Shown here piece by piece: positions 7,330 to 60,674 of a stretch of 64,000 nucleotides of DNA (positions within the stretch are counted from its first letter, which is position 1; each line of letters opens with the position of its first letter). The notes beneath the pieces were generated by a model. It made no database searches and was not told where the DNA came from. It was given only the letters and a program-made list of their open reading frames with translations. The DNA is from Mesoterricola silvestris (lineage in GTDB: Bacteria; Acidobacteriota; Holophagae; Holophagales; Holophagaceae), in contig NZ_AP027080.1 in NCBI RefSeq assembly GCF_030295405.1, forward strand, positions 806,001-870,000, given 5' to 3'. Both the position numbers and the translations under genes were made by a program.

Positions 7330-8400
7330 ATGACAAAGCCAAAGATCGGCCCGCGCAAGGTCGCGGTCATCATGGCCGGCGGCCGCGGTACGCGCTTCTG
7401 GCCCCGGTCCCGGGGCGCCCGCCCCAAGCAGTTCCTGGCCATGGTGGGGGAGGAGACCCTCCTCAACGCCACCGTGAGCCGGCTGAGCCCGTCCTTCCTG
7501 CCCGGGGACATCTACATCGTCACCACCGAGGAACTGGCCGCCGAGACCCGGCGCATGCTGCCCCAGCTCCCCCCGGGCAACGTCCTGGTGGAGCCCGAGG
7601 GCCGCAACACCGCCCCCTGCCTCGCGCTGGCCCTGGCCGTCATCGAGAGCCGCACCCCCGACGGCGTCATGGTGGTCCTTTCCGCCGATTCCTGGATCGG
7701 GGACAAGGACAAGTTCCTGGAGGACATCGACACCGCCGTGCACCACGCCGCCGGCAAGCGCGACCTGGTGGTCTTCGGCATCCGCCCCACCTACCCGGAA
7801 ACCGGCTACGGCTACATCGAGACCGAAGGCAAGGGTAAGGTCCTGGGCGCCTCCGCCTTCCGGGAGAAGCCGACCTACGACAAGGCCGTGGAGTACCTGG
7901 AATCCGGCCGCCACTTCTGGAACGCGGGCATGTTCGTGTGGACCCTCCAGGACCTGCGCGCCGAACTCACCCGCCACTGCCCCGAGATCCTGGCGCCCCT
8001 CGACGAGTGGATGGCCGCCGGCGCCGATCCCGCCAGGCTGGCCCAGGCCTACGGCCGGCTCCCCAAGCTCTCCATCGACTACGCCCTCATGGAGAAATCG
8101 GACCGCGTGGCCGTGGTCCCGGCCCATTTCCGCTGGTCCGACGTGGGCTCCTGGCCCGCCGTGGTGGAATTCCACGAGAGCGACGCCGCCGGCAACGTCG
8201 TCCAGGGCGATGTCATCCTGCTGGAATCCAACAACTGCGCCGTCTTCGGCGGCAAACGCCTCATCGCGGGCTCCGGCCTGGAGGACCTGATCGTCGTGGA
8301 CGAACCCGACGCCCTCCTCCTCTGCCGCAAGGACCGCGCCCAGGACGTCAAGACCATCGTCGAGCGCCTTTCCGCCATGGGCCGCACCGACCTCCTCTAG
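7330..8400 (+). CDS. manC: mannose-1-phosphate guanylyltransferase
   Basis: A 356-residue nucleotidyltransferase making GDP-mannose from mannose-1-phosphate and GTP, for surface polysaccharides and glycans. The pyrophosphorylase signature MAGGRGTRFWPRSR near the N-terminus, the PKQF motif, EPEGRNTAP, the metal/sugar block FREKP and the FWNAGMFVW segment are all present. It ends where the nucleotidyltransferase core ends and lacks the isomerase cupin found fused in many ManC/AlgA proteins; that domain follows as a separate gene 10 bp downstream. It starts 23 bp after pfkA and is probably cotranscribed with it. Confidence 0.93.
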   Translation: MTKPKIGPRKVAVIMAGGRGTRFWPRSRGARPKQFLAMVGEETLLNATVSRLSPSFLPGDIYIVTTEELAAETRRMLPQLPPGNVLVEPEGRNTAPCLALALAVIESRTPDGVMVVLSADSWIGDKDKFLEDIDTAVHHAAGKRDLVVFGIRPTYPETGYGYIETEGKGKVLGASAFREKPTYDKAVEYLESGRHFWNAGMFVWTLQDLRAELTRHCPEILAPLDEWMAAGADPARLAQAYGRLPKLSIDYALMEKSDRVAVVPAHFRWSDVGSWPAVVEFHESDAAGNVVQGDVILLESNNCAVFGGKRLIAGSGLEDLIVVDEPDALLLCRKDRAQDVKTIVERLSAMGRTDLL

Positions 8401-8410
8401 GGAACCCCAG

Positions 8411-8773
8411 ATGACCCAGAAACCCGCCACCCTCCACGTCGACAAACCCTGGGGCAGCTTCGACCAGTTCGTCCTGAACCAGCCCTGCACCGTCAAGATC
8501 CTCACCTGCAGCCCCGGCGCCAAGCTGAGCCTCCAGCGCCACCGCCACCGCAACGAACTGTGGGTGGCCCTGGACGCCGGCGTCGTCGTGGAACTGGACG
8601 GCAAGGTCCTCACCCCCGACAAGGGCGCCCAGATCTGGCTCCCCGCCGGCAGCGTCCACCGCCTCAGCTGCGAAGCCTCCCGCACCAGCCCCGTGCGGGT
8701 CATGGAGATCAGCCTCGGCACCTTCGACGAGGACGACATCGAGCGCCTGGAAGACGTGTACGGCCGGAACTGA
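8411..8773 (+). CDS. cupin, mannose-6-phosphate isomerase type II-like
   Basis: A 120-residue single cupin matching the C-terminal isomerase domain of bifunctional ManC/AlgA. Seen: DKPWGSFDQF at the N-terminus, metal-binding LQRHRHRNELWVAL, the IWLPAGSVHRL second cupin motif and the closing EDDIERLEDVYGR. It would interconvert fructose 6-phosphate and mannose 6-phosphate, directly linking pfkA substrate to ManC product. Ten base pairs separate it from manC, so the bifunctional enzyme is split into two adjacent genes here. Confidence 0.85.
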   Translation: MTQKPATLHVDKPWGSFDQFVLNQPCTVKILTCSPGAKLSLQRHRHRNELWVALDAGVVVELDGKVLTPDKGAQIWLPAGSVHRLSCEASRTSPVRVMEISLGTFDEDDIERLEDVYGRN

Positions 8774-8905
8774 CCCGGCCCGAAGGGCAGGGTGGTGCCC
8801 ACCCCCGGAAAGGCGTATGCTGGACCCGAGGTGTTCCTCCAGGACCGGCTTGCCGCTCCTGGACCCAAGGAACTGCACGCCACCTATTGTCCCTTCAATC
8901 TCACC

Positions 8906-8926
8906 AGTCCCCCACGATCGGGGACT
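8906..8926. terminator. hairpin after the manC-cupin operon
   Basis: AGTCCCC (8906-8912) pairs with GGGGACT (8920-8926) around a 7-base loop. It lies 130 bp after the cupin stop and has no T-run, so it may be only an RNA hairpin. Confidence 0.4.
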
Positions 8927-8974
8927 CCCGCAAGACACTTCCCACCTAATCAACCCCGCCAAAACTTCCCACAC

Positions 8975-9000
8975 GAAACGCCCCCGCCTCGGGGCGTTTC
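8975..9000. terminator. strong hairpin, likely bidirectional terminator
   Basis: A perfect 10-bp stem, GAAACGCCCC (8975-8984) and GGGGCGTTTC (8991-9000), with loop CGCCTC. Reading rightward the stem ends in GTTTC and an AT-rich run follows. It marks the boundary between the core genes and the integrase region. The rest of 8774-9153 has no gene I can support. Confidence 0.65.
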
Positions 9001-9065
9001 ACTGTATTTGGAAAGAATTTAAGGAATAGGATCGCATTGAAAACAGTGGATTTATTGTTTGAATT

Positions 9066-9100
9066 GTCTAGACAAGTCTATGGCTGTCTACTGGAATCTA
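9066..9100. repeat. four TCTA repeats at exact 10-bp spacing before the integrase
   Basis: TCTA occurs at 9067, 9077, 9087 and 9097, each exactly 10 bp after the last and preceded by G, G, G and A. The first lies in the 12-bp palindrome TTGTCTAGACAA (9064-9075). One helical turn of spacing places all copies on the same DNA face, as in arm-type integrase, excisionase or cooperative repressor sites. It lies about 55 bp before the integrase start. Confidence 0.6.
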
Positions 9101-9153
9101 GGACGGTTTTTGAGGAAATTTTGAGGACGTTTTTGCTGGGGCGTTTCCTTTGA

Positions 9154-10470
9154 ATGTGGCATCATGCCCGCATGGCACGCACCAAAGGTGATTCCGACCT
9201 GATGACCAGAACCTCCCGCGCCAAGCTTCCGAAACGGAAGGCGCCCTACTGGATGTCCATGGAGAAGGGGCGCCGGCTGGGTTACTACAAGGGCTCGAAG
9301 GGTGGCAACTGGCTGGCCTGGTTCTACGACTCGACTGCCGAACCTCCGACCCTTCAGAAGGCCCTGGGGGCTGCAGACGACAATTCCGATGCTGACGGCA
9401 AGATGGTGCTCTCCTTCTCCCAGGCACAGGAGGCGGCACGGGAGTGGTTCAAGGAGGCCTACCACGAGGCCACTGGGGATCGGGTGACAACCGGCCCTTA
9501 CACGGTGAGGGAAGCGATCCAGGCCTACGTCGAGGATAGGAAGAAAAACAAAGCGAAGACCGCCAATCGGATGGATGGCGACCTGCAGCGTCACGTCATC
9601 CCAATCCTCGGTGACGTGGAACTCGCCAAGCTGACCCGGAAACGATTGGAGGATTGGAAAGCCACTGTTGCTGCCTCGCCCACGCACCGCGCCGGGGTTG
9701 AAGGGAAGTCCCCTGAGACTGAGGACGAAATTCGTGCCCGCCAGGAGACCACCAACCGGGTTTGGAAGAATTTCAAAGCTGCCCTGAATCTCGCTCATCG
9801 GGATAAGCGGATTTCGACGGATGCCGGTTGGCGGGACGTGATGCCATACCAGGGTACAAAGGTGGCTCGCCTGCGGTTTCTCTCCATCAAGGAACAGCAG
9901 CGGTTGGTGAATGCGGCGGCCTCCAATGACTTCCGTCGTCTGGTCCAGGCCGGCTTGTTCACCGGCGCCCGCGAAGGCGAGATTGCCCGCCTTCAGGCCA
10001 AGGACTTTGACGGTGTGCGCCGAACCATCTTCATCGAGCGGAGTAAGAGCGGCAAGTCCCGGTACGTCGATGTCTCTCCGGAGGCTGGGAATTTCTTCCA
10101 GGAATGCACCGCAGGGCTGGCTCCGGCTGGCAGAATTTTCCCGCGAACCTCGTACGACCGGAAGGAGAAGGCCCCATCAGGAGAATGGAGCCGGTCTGAA
10201 ATCTCCCGGATGATGAAGGCTGTATGCGAAGCTGCAAAACTGGAACCGCTCGTTTTCCATGAACTGCGGCACACTTGCGCCTCGACCTGGATTAATGCCG
10301 GAATGAGTCTCTTTCATGTTGCCCAGCAACTCGGTCACCGAGATACCAGGATGGTTGAAGATTACTACGGCCACTTGTGTCAGACGGCAAAAGCTGAGGC
10401 TATGGATCGTTTGGCCCCGGTTCTGGGAATTTACACCCCGGAAGGTAATACGGCACCTGAAGTTCAGTGA
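9154..10470 (+). CDS. tyrosine recombinase (phage/island integrase)
   Basis: A site-specific integrase of up to 438 residues; an ATG at 9172 (MARTKGDSD) is an alternative start and neither has a good ribosome site. The N-terminal arm-binding part precedes a SAM-like core-binding domain around residues 110-215. The catalytic set is complete: Arg in TGAREGEI, Lys in RSKSGKSR, HELRH, the LGHRD His and nucleophile Tyr in VEDYYGH. The phased repeats upstream and a tRNA-like half downstream suggest it moved an island or prophage into a tRNA gene. Only two doubtful genes follow before core-like DNA, so most of the element may be lost. Confidence 0.9.
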   Translation: MWHHARMARTKGDSDLMTRTSRAKLPKRKAPYWMSMEKGRRLGYYKGSKGGNWLAWFYDSTAEPPTLQKALGAADDNSDADGKMVLSFSQAQEAAREWFKEAYHEATGDRVTTGPYTVREAIQAYVEDRKKNKAKTANRMDGDLQRHVIPILGDVELAKLTRKRLEDWKATVAASPTHRAGVEGKSPETEDEIRARQETTNRVWKNFKAALNLAHRDKRISTDAGWRDVMPYQGTKVARLRFLSIKEQQRLVNAAASNDFRRLVQAGLFTGAREGEIARLQAKDFDGVRRTIFIERSKSGKSRYVDVSPEAGNFFQECTAGLAPAGRIFPRTSYDRKEKAPSGEWSRSEISRMMKAVCEAAKLEPLVFHELRHTCASTWINAGMSLFHVAQQLGHRDTRMVEDYYGHLCQTAKAEAMDRLAPVLGIYTPEGNTAPEVQ

Positions 10471-56486: not shown

Positions 56487-56861
56487 GTGGCTCAGAAAAA
56501 GAAGGAAGACCAGTGGGTTCCGATCACCGCTCGGATCAGTCCCGATTCCGCCGTTCGCTTGCGCGTGAACGCCGCCCGGCGGGGGATCCCTTTTGGCCGT
56601 GTCTTGGACGAATTGATCCAGGCTGGGCTTCAGCCGGAAAAGCCCCTGCGGGGTCCAGGCCTGGTCCCCAAGACCGCCGTGCCTTGGACCGTCGAGCGAT
56701 TGGGAAAAGCATTAGGGGACCTTGGCATCACACAGGCGGCGTTCTCCAGGGAATTGAAGCTGTCGCAGAAAGCCGTCAACAACTGGTTCTTGAAGGGCGA
56801 GATCCCGCCCCGAAGGCAAATGGAAATTGAACGTGCGATTGCAGCATTGAGGAAAGCCTAG
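56487..56861 (+). CDS. XRE-like helix-turn-helix protein
   Basis: 124 residues from GTG 56487 (AAGGGG 6 bases upstream); the frame is open to 56376. The N-terminal half (VPITARISPDSAVRLRVNAARRGIPFGRVLDELI) looks like a ribbon-helix-helix domain, and the C-terminal half is a helix-turn-helix (TVERLGKALGDLGITQAAFSRELKLSQKAVNNWFLKGEIP). Such a two-domain regulator could control the convergent protease operon; the stop codons overlap by 4 bp. Confidence 0.75.
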   Translation: MAQKKKEDQWVPITARISPDSAVRLRVNAARRGIPFGRVLDELIQAGLQPEKPLRGPGLVPKTAVPWTVERLGKALGDLGITQAAFSRELKLSQKAVNNWFLKGEIPPRRQMEIERAIAALRKA

Positions 56862-59800
56862 GGGCCACGCAGGATGTCCTGAATCAGCGGAGCACGGAGC
56901 ACTTCGTGGGCGAGGAGCAAGTCCACCAATTGCCTCCATTCATGCTCATTCAGGATGAGCGTTTCTTCCGCCAAAGTGATCCCTTCAGAGATCCAGACCT
57001 TGACGCGTTCCTGGACCTGGGTGGCAAGGGCCGGGGTAGAAGCGAGGATCTCCTCAGAAATCGAAATGACACCGATTACCGGGTCGAATCCGAAGGTGAT
57101 GATGGCACGCCTGGCTAGGTGGGAGGCGCGCTCCAAGTCGGAACTACAGCCTGCGGTTATGGCTTCAGAGCTGCGGGACACCATTGCCTCTCCGGCCCTC
57201 CCAGCCAAGAGGATTGCGAGATCTTCTCGAATAGATCGGGGGGTGGGCAGCCCACCATCGCCCTGGACGGCCTGGGTGATTCCTCCAGTGCCGTTTGCCC
57301 TGGAGATGATGTCCAGCCGCGTGATTTTGGAGTCAGGGCGGAGCTTGGCTTGGACGACCGCATGGCCAGCTTCGTGGGCTGCGCAAATGCGCCGGTCCTC
57401 GGTCCTCTCTTTGCGCGAAGAACGGGGCCCCAACTGTGTCCATTCGAGCGCCTGCTCGAGGTCTGCCTGAGTTATTTCGTGCCGCCCATCCCGGAGGGCC
57501 CATTGGACGGCCATCCGCACGAGGCCATGCAGGTCAGCAGCGCTGGAGCGGAACGAACGCTGGGCTAGATCCGGGAGGTCCAGGGATCCATGGGTGGGAA
57601 GATGGGAAAGGACGTTTCGCAGAATGGCTTCTCGCTCCTCCACGCCCGGAAGCTCTAACGGGATAAGGCCGTCGAACCGCCCAGGGCGCAGTAGGGCAGG
57701 GTCCAGCAACTCGGGATGGTTCGTCGCGGCAAGCACCAGCAAGGGCCGCTCTCGTTGCTGGAGGCCATCCATGGCTGTAAGGAGCGTGGTCACGCACCGG
57801 TGGGTGTCGGCGTCCATCGCTGTGGAACGTGAGATCCCAATGGCATCCAGTTCGTCCAGGAAGAGTACGGCGGGTGCGTGCCGCGCCGCCTCCTGGAAAA
57901 GCTCCCGGAGTCGGACCGATGCTGTGTCGCGGTACCGGCTGGCGAGGTCGCCCGGCGTCGCGGAGAAGAACGGCAAGTGGCTTTCGGCGGCCAGCGAGCG
58001 GGCAAGTGAGGTTTTCCCGCAACCCGGGGGACCGGTCAGGAGATAGCCCTTAGGCACCGGAAGGCTCCCATGGTTTTCCTGCAGAAGACGCACGGCCACC
58101 CGGAGGAGGGACTTCGCGTCCTCAAGCCCTACGAGCTGGTCAAAGCCGCCCTGCGGGAATTCCATCGCATGGGGTCGGCTTCCGGGAGCAGGACAGGGGG
58201 CCTCACGCGTCTCCTTGGCTTTACTTAAGCGGAGGATGAGATCGCCATCCTCTCGGACCAGGGGAAGGAAGTGTGGGGTCACGGTTGTCCCCGCCCGGGC
58301 CTGCTCCCGGAACACCCAATCCAAGCGGAGGCTGTCGAGGAAGCGGCCCACGGCCTCCCTGTCCCGAGGCGAACACCAGGTCCAAGCGGCCGCCGGCCGG
58401 TGGAAGGCCACCATCTGCCTTTTGACCCTGGGCGAAGCCATGGCCAGGACTGGGACGCCAACGAGACGGTCCAACCACTGGGGCTCACATCGCCGCGGCA
58501 GATGCAGCAAGACCGCATCAATCCTCCCAAGGGACGGCTGGTCTCCACCGTTGGCTTCCGGCAATTCATGGAACCGAAGGGCCCTTGCGCCCAGAGCCGC
58601 CTTGAAGGGTGCGAGCGATCCCCGCGTGGCTATCCGCAGGGGGACCGCGTCCAACTTTGCCTTGGCCAGGGCCCGTTCGGCGGGGCCTGCGGTCACGCGC
58701 AAAGTGGTTGCAGGTCGTTGACCCATTAGCTCGAGCAGGTCGGGAACAAGCCTGGAGGCGAAGACGTCGCCTTGGGCTTCCGCCTTGCGGGCATCGAGTT
58801 CGCGGCTTTCCGCCAGGAGGCAGAGGAGGGCTTCCTCCCTTCCCAGCTCAAGCTTGGGCAGTTTCAGGGCCTCGAGCTTCCGCCGTGCGGAGCGCATGAA
58901 AACCTCAATCAGATCCGAGCCAGTGAGACGGCTCATGGCAAGGACAAAGCCCTTGGCGAGGCGCGATACCAGCTCAGGTGAAAGGATGCGCCTCCCCTGG
59001 GCCTCCTCGTCACGGGAAGGCTCGCTGGCCTCGTCCAGGAGCCTGAGGAGTTGCGCTCGGCTCCAGGTTCTGGGCTTGTCCTCCCGGAAAAATTCCTGAC
59101 CCAGGTTCGACGTGATCATGATCCAGCAGCGGCTGAAATCGATGTCCTGCCCATGGAAGTTGTCGCGAGCTGAGCCATGGTCCAGGAGGCCGAGGATGGC
59201 CTGGAGGAAGGCCGGGTTCGCCTTTTCTAGCTCATCCAGGAGGATCACCGAGTCCGGATTATTTTTCACGAAATTCGTCAACAGCCCTGGTTGGGCGTCC
59301 CGGTAGCTGGGCGAAAAACCGAAAAGCTGGTCATGGGAATAGTCGGCGGAGTAGGTCCCGACGTCGATGACCAAGAACCCATGGGTGCCTTCGATGGCTT
59401 CCAGCCCAGTTGCGAAACTCCGACACAGGCTGCTCTTCCCGGTTCCTGGCGGGCCCAGCAGGGTGAAGAGTCCCTTCGTTCCGAGCGAACTGGGGCAATG
59501 GAGGCTCTGGTAGTAGGCCTCGACGAGCACCTTGACCGGACCGTCCTGGCCCAGGATACGTTCCTGAAGATGCATGCGCATCGCCTCCTGCCGTTGCTTT
59601 GGCGAACTCTTGGAAGGTGCGGGGCTTTGGGACTGGGATTCTGGGCTTCGGACGGACCGTTGGGGCCTGTTCGACCGGCGCATTTCCTGCCCGATATAGG
59701 TGTCCGAGAGGAGAACGCCTTTGGCAAGGAGGTGAAGGTCAAAGTTCCCTTGTCCCTCGAAGGCTGCCTGAAGAACTTTCCTGGCGGAAGCATCGTAGGC

Positions 59801-60055
59801 CATCACCGCGGCGATTTTGTCCTCGGAAACCTTGGTCGCGAACTGCCAACGCTGGGCCAAGTCTGGCGGCCAGGAGATGGCCGTGCGGGGGCACCTGAAG
59901 ATACCCTCAATGATAGTCTCCACCTGAGGCACTTCCTGGAGGCCGTAGAAACCTAGGGCAAGATCCTCGATGCTGAGGATGTCATGGCCTGAGGCGGTCG
60001 CACACCGCTTGGCAGCCTGAAAGAGCCGTTCCGTGGGGGAAGGTTCATTGCGCAT
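56858..60055 (-). CDS. Clp-type AAA+ / FtsH-type AAA+ / M41 zinc protease chimera
   Basis: 1065 residues. 1-125: Clp-N-like repeat domain (ERLFQAAKRCATASGHDILSIEDLALGFY). 160-400: Clp-type AAA+ with Walker A GPPGTGKS (201-208), HDQLFGFSPSYRDAQPGLLT, Walker B ILLDELEKAN and sensor ITSN. 400-630: a poorly conserved linker. 635-870: FtsH-type AAA+ with GPPGCGKT (675-682), LFLDELDAIG and RPGRFD. 885-1065: M41 protease with HEAGH (894-898) and the third zinc ligand in SSDLERA (Asp 973). Both ATPase sites and the protease appear intact. No membrane helix, so unlike FtsH it is soluble. Last gene of a three-gene operon. Confidence 0.9.
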   Translation of the reverse strand: MRNEPSPTERLFQAAKRCATASGHDILSIEDLALGFYGLQEVPQVETIIEGIFRCPRTAISWPPDLAQRWQFATKVSEDKIAAVMAYDASARKVLQAAFEGQGNFDLHLLAKGVLLSDTYIGQEMRRSNRPQRSVRSPESQSQSPAPSKSSPKQRQEAMRMHLQERILGQDGPVKVLVEAYYQSLHCPSSLGTKGLFTLLGPPGTGKSSLCRSFATGLEAIEGTHGFLVIDVGTYSADYSHDQLFGFSPSYRDAQPGLLTNFVKNNPDSVILLDELEKANPAFLQAILGLLDHGSARDNFHGQDIDFSRCWIMITSNLGQEFFREDKPRTWSRAQLLRLLDEASEPSRDEEAQGRRILSPELVSRLAKGFVLAMSRLTGSDLIEVFMRSARRKLEALKLPKLELGREEALLCLLAESRELDARKAEAQGDVFASRLVPDLLELMGQRPATTLRVTAGPAERALAKAKLDAVPLRIATRGSLAPFKAALGARALRFHELPEANGGDQPSLGRIDAVLLHLPRRCEPQWLDRLVGVPVLAMASPRVKRQMVAFHRPAAAWTWCSPRDREAVGRFLDSLRLDWVFREQARAGTTVTPHFLPLVREDGDLILRLSKAKETREAPCPAPGSRPHAMEFPQGGFDQLVGLEDAKSLLRVAVRLLQENHGSLPVPKGYLLTGPPGCGKTSLARSLAAESHLPFFSATPGDLASRYRDTASVRLRELFQEAARHAPAVLFLDELDAIGISRSTAMDADTHRCVTTLLTAMDGLQQRERPLLVLAATNHPELLDPALLRPGRFDGLIPLELPGVEEREAILRNVLSHLPTHGSLDLPDLAQRSFRSSAADLHGLVRMAVQWALRDGRHEITQADLEQALEWTQLGPRSSRKERTEDRRICAAHEAGHAVVQAKLRPDSKITRLDIISRANGTGGITQAVQGDGGLPTPRSIREDLAILLAGRAGEAMVSRSSEAITAGCSSDLERASHLARRAIITFGFDPVIGVISISEEILASTPALATQVQERVKVWISEGITLAEETLILNEHEWRQLVDLLLAHEVLRAPLIQDILRGP

Positions 60056-60077: not shown

Positions 60078-60674
60078 TCAGATGAAGTTGGGCAGGACCT
60101 TGGATTTGGGAACGATGGCTTGCCGAAGAAGGTCTGCGCGTTCGCGGTGGGTTTGGAGTTGATCCTCCAGATTGCGAATTTCCGCGGTGATGGATTGCAA
60201 GGCAGGAGGGTCCTCCTGGATCAGGCTCTCGTCCCAGATTCCGTCCCGGATACGGATTCGGAGGTAGGCCATAGTGGGCACCAGAACGGCAAGGGAAAGA
60301 TCCAGAATGGTTCTGTACGCCGGGTCGTCCTTGGGCGGGAGTTGCCGCGTCGGAAGATAGAGTTCCAGCCGTGGCGTAACCATGGGGCCGACTTGGGTGC
60401 TGATGAAGCGCAGCAAGCGGAAGCGACTCTGGACGCGCAGAAGGGCTCTCCAATCATCAGGAGAAGCAAATCCCCGTGCATCAAAGCGAGGGCCTTGGAC
60501 GATGATCAGGCTGCCATCATCGGCGCAACACAGGTCCAACCTGGCTCCGTTCCCTTCGGGAAAGGGGCTCGGCGCCAATGCCGAAACCCAATCTCCGGTG
60601 GCCTCGAAAAGGAATCCCTGCGGGTCCTTGAGCCCCTGGAAGTGTTCAAGGAGCTTGCGAGTGAATTGGTTCAT
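60078..60674 (-). CDS. 198-residue partner protein of the protease operon
   Basis: An alpha/beta N-terminal domain (LDLCCADDGSLIIVQGPRFDARGF, RFRLLRFISTQVGPMVTPRLELYLP) and a C-terminal coiled coil (ALQSITAEIRNLEDQLQTHRERADLLRQAI). No family recognised. 22 bp before the protease start, in the same direction, so a substrate adaptor or regulator role is plausible but unproven. Confidence 0.75.
   Translation of the reverse strand: MNQFTRKLLEHFQGLKDPQGFLFEATGDWVSALAPSPFPEGNGARLDLCCADDGSLIIVQGPRFDARGFASPDDWRALLRVQSRFRLLRFISTQVGPMVTPRLELYLPTRQLPPKDDPAYRTILDLSLAVLVPTMAYLRIRIRDGIWDESLIQEDPPALQSITAEIRNLEDQLQTHRERADLLRQAIVPKSKVLPNFI

Follow-up and report, generated by a model that had tools for sequence, protein, structure and literature searches.

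The AAA+ proteases usually listed for bacteria are Lon, FtsH, Clp, HslUV and the actinobacterial proteasome. In FtsH and the m-AAA proteases, which are held at the membrane, an FtsH-type AAA+ module is followed directly by an M41 peptidase with a HEXXH zinc site and a third Asp ligand, and in ClpA, ClpC and ClpB (Hsp100) a D2-type AAA+ module with an arginine finger is combined with an N-terminal Clp_N double repeat. The two kinds of protein also occur as separate products of genes encoded close together on mobile islands, in which a canonical membrane FtsH accompanies a ClpK with two AAA+ modules. A further arrangement is that of the FtsH ternary systems, which have MoxR and vWA proteins as core components and in which both AAA+ modules are FtsH-type, with an inactive first one (Kaur et al. 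2020, PMC7159879). Here, we describe a gene that brings Clp-type and FtsH-type parts together in one chain. It lies on the reverse strand of a 64,000-nucleotide stretch of Mesoterricola silvestris (contig NZ_AP027080.1, positions 806,001 to 870,000; hereafter the window) and encodes a Clp_N-like domain, a Clp-type AAA+ module (ring 1), a receiver-like domain, an FtsH-type AAA+ module (ring 2) and an M41 peptidase, in that order. An earlier reading of the window from its letters (the sequence-only reading) had called the product a soluble chimera of a Clp unfoldase and an FtsH protease. Our analysis points to a real but rare protease family that is apparently undescribed: as that reading had supposed, no description of a Clp-FtsH-M41 architecture was found in openly licensed papers, the nearest idea being that of PMC7159879, and no chain covering the architecture was seen among solved structures, by sequence or by fold.

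The open reading frame (56858-60055, reverse strand) is intact at the position first proposed for it, with a product of 1065 residues and zero internal stops. Pfam places AAA_2 at residues 195-367 (1.8e-23), AAA at 671-800 (3e-44) and Peptidase_M41 at 885-1060 (5e-24), which recovers both AAA+ modules and the protease named in the sequence-only reading; the Pfam AAA model matches ring 1 as well as ring 2. The catalytic motifs that had been judged intact are all present and align with those of the relatives. By alignment, Walker A, Walker B, sensor 1 and the arginine finger are retained in both rings; in ring 2, Walker B reads FLDELD (732-737) and the RPGRFD motif lies at 790-795. The zinc-site residues H894, E895 and H898 together with the third Asp, D973, are kept in 13/13 aligned sequences. 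The pore loops are atypical, with SYRD in place of GYVG in ring 1 and RYRD in place of the FtsH MFVG stretch in ring 2. The claimed solubility also stood: the highest 19-residue Kyte-Doolittle mean is 1.44 in the window protease (1.07-1.72 across the family) against 2.0-3.0 in 21 membrane FtsH proteins, and hydropathy indicates no membrane helix in any of the 13 family sequences. The weakest-supported part is the Clp_N-like N-terminus, a claim of the sequence-only reading that held in part. Clp_N is absent among the Pfam matches listed for every family member examined, whereas a hidden Markov model (HMM) of the family N-termini matches both repeats of the host ClpC N-domain at 1.2e-8 in a three-sequence database.

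In NCBIfam, FtsH_fam matches residues 638-1055 (1.6e-85) and the ClpA D2 region matches 150-411 (7.9e-26), both far under the family cut-offs (288 bits against 600 for FtsH); identity to FtsH is ~31-38% over residues 638-1002. Compared with FtsH, the window protein has no membrane anchor and carries an extra Clp-type ring as well as the receiver-like and Clp_N-like domains. Compared with ClpA, ClpC and ClpB, it has a single Clp AAA+ module and its own zinc protease in the chain, and sequence inspection between sensor 1 and R365 revealed no IGL/IGF-type tripeptide for ClpP docking. From its sequence, the protein is predicted to be a single-chain, ATP-dependent zinc protease of the cytosol without a membrane anchor; it would work like an AAA+ protease while qualifying neither as FtsH (no anchor, sub-cut-off score) nor as Clp (own protease, no ClpP loop).

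The search for proteins with the same domain order that the sequence-only reading had proposed returned relatives in three phyla, so that the one-protein chimera is real but not unique. Ten full-length proteins with the same layout, and one cut by a contig end (G1177), come from the host's phylum, Bacteroidota and Clostridia. A single-protein pattern scan of genome contigs found nothing; the first relatives (Tannerellaceae, Clostridiales and Lachnospiraceae) were found by a scan with an alignment of two N-terminal halves. Genome searches then added G717 and G549 from the same order as the Lachnospiraceae genome, G354 and G109 from the host's phylum, and G1177 and a degenerate copy, G1390, from the same phylum as the Clostridiales genome. 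The G1390 copy (L172:8573-11458, reverse strand) is without the N-terminal domain and has degenerate Walker B motifs in both rings and an intact HEAGH, possibly a pseudo-ATPase protease. The family is rare, at 3/344, 1/247, 3/396 and 3/398 genomes with the starting genomes counted in, in a sampling that covered the groups reachable from the matches. A fused copy is present in no other genome among 93 of the host's class, no full-length relative was found on viral contigs, and no phage or plasmid record covered 80% of the query. Plasmid proteins of Methylibium, P. aeruginosa and Euzebya, at first taken as soluble relatives, were dropped, as they have membrane segments. In trees, ring 1 forms one group apart from 12 canonical Clp modules (100/100 support) and ring 2 one group apart from 21 canonical FtsH modules (82/80). 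Since each ring forms a single group and the sub-groups of the two trees largely match, the Clp-FtsH-M41 fusion looks like a single old event, as judged from these sequences, in a family now spanning at least three phyla.

The domain between the rings, ~130-180 residues long across the family, is predicted as a (beta-alpha)5 fold in the Tannerellaceae relative L076, with a predicted local distance difference test score (pLDDT) of 72.5. The model was built from this relative and three further aligned rows, among them that of the window protein at 22% identity, and the best 50 PDB matches to it are response-regulator receivers or receiver-like proteins, RssB included. The receiver assignment is based on the relative's model, the window sequence alone having modelled poorly, and Pfam Response_reg matches at this position are weak (G354 0.0013, G109 0.012). 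In the alignment the receiver residues of G109 are complete, with the acidic pair in LVDDD, the acceptor in LLDL, the hydroxyl residue in YLFS and the lysine in FPKR. In the window copy His replaces the phospho-acceptor Asp at the end of strand 3. Because the phospho-acceptor residues kept in G109 are lost here and in the host's paralogue, the inter-ring domain of the window copy is probably a pseudo-receiver. RssB, an adaptor of ClpXP, likewise couples a receiver fold to an AAA+ protease, but it is a separate protein, whereas the receiver of the window family forms part of the chain, between two AAA+ modules.

The host genome encodes a full-length paralogue with 40% identity (G000:C1:3938779-3941955) and a third version as two adjacent genes of 407 and 699 residues (L010:6785-8008 and 8013-10112). 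The two-gene form also occurs in two further genomes of the same family (L041 and L042), which rejects the idea that the pair is a frameshifted copy. The split point lies inside the small domain of the Clp module, and the two products must therefore pair. Split forms cluster together in the trees, close to the host's fused copies, and in the alignment they are without ~5 residues at the ring 1 pore loop. Given fused forms elsewhere in the family, the simplest reading of the sequences is that the split form arose by later fission. Downstream of two split pairs lie homologous relaxase-like HxHxH proteins (L010:11231-13696 and L041:14860-17271), which suggests mobile elements.

Beside the protease gene, 22 nucleotides upstream and in the same direction, lies a small partner gene whose product is probably an adaptor. 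The paralogue is preceded by a homologue of this partner (E 1e-18), and LPxFI ends both proteins. A small partner gene adjoins five of the ten full-length copies. The small proteins next to G354 and G109 are homologous to each other (9e-38), and the Lachnospiraceae copy (L094) is adjoined by a YbjN-domain protein (PF10722, 1.2e-6); the PF10722 match of the G354 partner is weak (0.51) and the window partner has none. Among 396 genomes of the host's phylum, the window partner was detected at E 0.001 in the two host copies and nowhere else, and for that reason it is unusable for finding distant copies. On the other side, a convergent helix-turn-helix gene shares its last 4 nucleotides with the end of the protease gene. 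The receiver-like domain, the partner gene, the paralogue and the relatives go beyond the sequence-only reading. Coordinates of the window features are collected in Table 1.

Table 1. Positions of the protease gene, its domains and motifs, and the two adjoining genes in the window
Feature	Position	Strand	Size or evidence
Clp_N-like/Clp AAA+/receiver-like/FtsH AAA+/M41 protease gene	56858..60055	(-)	1065 aa
N-terminal Clp_N-like helical domain, residues 1-130	59666..60055	(-)	Family N-terminal HMM vs host ClpC N-domain, 1.2e-8
Ring 1, Clp D2-type AAA+ module and small domain, residues ~150-440	58736..59608	(-)	AAA_2 1.8e-23; tree 100/100 apart from canonical Clp
Ring 1 Walker A GPPGTGKS, residues 201-208	59432..59455	(-)	Sequence, alignment
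Ring 1 Walker B LLDE, residues 272-275	59231..59242	(-)	Sequence, alignment
Receiver-like domain between rings, residues ~451-584, degenerate	58304..58705	(-)	Relative's model and PDB matches; weak Response_reg in two relatives
Ring 2, FtsH-type AAA+ module, residues ~636-870	57446..58150	(-)	Pfam AAA 3e-44; FtsH_fam 1.6e-85
Ring 2 Walker A GPPGCGKT, residues 675-682	58010..58033	(-)	Sequence, alignment
Peptidase M41 domain, residues 885-1060	56876..57403	(-)	Pfam 5e-24
Zinc site HEAGH, residues 894-898	57362..57376	(-)	HEXGH motif in 13/13 sequences
Asp 973, third zinc ligand by FtsH homology	57137..57139	(-)	Invariant in 13/13 sequences
Partner protein, 198 aa, C-terminus LPNFI, probable adaptor	60078..60674	(-)	Homologue beside paralogue, E 1e-18
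Convergent helix-turn-helix protein, 161 aa	56376..56861	(+)	Weak YdaS/Cro-type helix-turn-helix, below cut-off

Neighbourhood genes were called from open reading frames, and selected neighbours were scanned against Pfam or PADLOC. The accessory, defence-like setting that had been suspected for the window copy was borne out by a tyrosine integrase ~4.4 kb away, just past the window end, followed by AIPR (MzaE) and DUF4420 (MzaD) genes and then further large genes. Two more genes in this row read, from sequence, as a probable cytosine methyltransferase and as a probable AAA nuclease; a tRNA attachment site was sought near the window copy and not found. Downstream of the paralogue are UvrD-like and McrBC-like genes, with no integrase seen nearby, and the split host copy is accompanied by a DrmD-like helicase and an integrase 43% identical to the one beside the window. 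PADLOC reported no specific known anti-phage system, the matches being generic AAA ones alone (IetA, TRIP13, PDC-M37B, DolB and mad8). The setting, with an FtsH-type AAA+ module in a two-AAA+ protein in conflict-type surroundings, resembles that of the ternary systems of Kaur et al., from which the window protein differs in its Clp-type first AAA+ module and its C-terminal protease; among the neighbours examined, a part of which was scanned, neither a MoxR nor a vWA gene was found.

In other genomes the company differs. On one side of the G109 copy lies a CRISPR array (20 copies listed, with degeneracy in the outermost) and on the other a Cas6-RT-Cas1/Cas2 module; an NYN-domain gene is also present. 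This stretch (L171:2489-14003) holds a CRISPR array, the Clp-M41 protease, the small partner, the NYN protein, Cas6-RT-Cas1 and Cas2, and effector genes were not seen on the contig; near Cas2, a 533-residue protein (L171:4-1603, reverse strand) has an N-terminal receiver-like domain fused to both L-asparaginase halves, an unusual combination. In Lachnospiraceae (L094:3-7500, reverse strand) a TIR protein, a probable channel-like membrane protein, the protease and the YbjN protein follow one another. The Tannerellaceae, G717 and G549 copies lie in operons with an FHA protein, a PP2C phosphatase and a large kinase; in the operon copy scanned, the FHA protein has a kinase domain and the large kinase is of the WD40 type. 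This FHA/PP2C/kinase/Clp-M41 operon is conserved in Lachnospirales and Tannerellaceae (L091:1671-12301, L090:2235-12365 and L092:9251-19758).

The explanation that we favour, and regard as on balance probable, is a cytosolic two-ring, receiver-gated AAA+ zinc protease with a role in conflict or stress. By analogy with Clp and FtsH, the protein would assemble as a hexamer that stacks the Clp ring on the FtsH ring, with the M41 chamber at the exit end. The Clp_N-like domain and the small partner would recruit substrates, which ring 1 would grip and unfold and hand over to ring 2 for cleavage in the M41 chamber, and the receiver-like domain would link the rings and gate their coupling. Where relatives still have the acceptor site, phosphorylation could do the gating; in the window copy, a pseudo-receiver may be bound by a partner instead. 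The system would spread in islands with defence or signalling genes, and its most likely role is regulated proteolysis under conflict or stress. Several observations weigh against this explanation. The full-length structure prediction is poor (pLDDT 52), too weak for domain placement; the receiver phospho-residues are missing from the window copy and the paralogue; and homology between the window-clade partners and those of G354 and G109 is not demonstrable (hhalign E 0.0074, probability 5%). The neighbour pattern, based on small, raw counts, suggests conflict or stress signalling, and the CRISPR setting is that of one genome. Ring 1 also seems dead in G109 and G1390, and pore-loop residues are missing in the split forms, so that threading via ring 1 is not general. 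The two stacked ATPase rings of the sequence-only reading thus held as two AAA+ modules with intact motifs in the window copy, and two active rings are no rule of the family.

This loss bears on a rather unlikely alternative, in which ring 1 is a substrate-binding and regulatory cap and not a second motor, the FtsH ring alone threads, and the receiver relays the state of the cap. The ring 1 Walker B is lost in G109 and G1390 by alignment and the split forms are short of ~5 pore-loop residues, while HEXXH and the third ligand persist in 13/13 sequences, and the host's two fused copies have SYRD/SYTD in place of the Clp-typical GYVG pore motif. Nevertheless, the aromatic pore residue is kept, and ring 1 has an intact Walker A, Walker B, sensor 1 and arginine finger in the window copy, the paralogue and most relatives. 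Because Walker B or pore-loop residues are lost in some members, ring 1 may serve in part of the family as a regulatory cap, to judge from the aligned residues. We consider it unlikely that the protein is a mobile protease for stress proteostasis, as a soluble equivalent of the ClpK and FtsH genes of heat-resistance islands. Plasmid records place clpK and ftsH close together on such islands, and passages of PMC8290217 and PMC8407380 describe heat tolerance conferred by clpK/ftsH-type islands; however, ClpK and membrane FtsH are separate proteins there, both rings group apart from the canonical proteins compared, and no Hsp20 or chaperone gene is among the neighbours annotated. Quite improbable, in our view, is a protease that works for a mobile element, by controlling its integration or transfer, and not for host defence. 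The integrases beside the window copy and the split pair and the relaxase-like genes would fit such a role, but the gut relatives are found in kinase/phosphatase operons, the G109 locus is a CRISPR one and the paralogue has no integrase in sight. An assembly artefact or accidental gene fusion can be set aside with near certainty: nothing speaks for it, and it is ruled out by the 40% identical paralogue in the same genome and by ten proteins from three phyla that agree in order and length.

As a two-ring, receiver-gated AAA+ zinc protease, the window protein would represent a family that departs from two rules, in that an M41 peptidase works without the membrane and a receiver domain connects a Clp ring to its own protease. 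We hold it as doubtful, though conceivable, that the family adds another class to the bacterial AAA+ proteases, that of a soluble M41 enzyme with two rings, receiver gating and a dedicated small adaptor, which responds to signals as a switched effector of anti-phage or CRISPR-linked immunity. The protein offers a one-chain system for asking whether two unlike AAA+ rings act as a relay and in what way a receiver controls a protease directly, and the natural split versions provide a test case for the reassembly of two halves. If the defence setting is functional, the family would add a protease effector to bacterial immunity.

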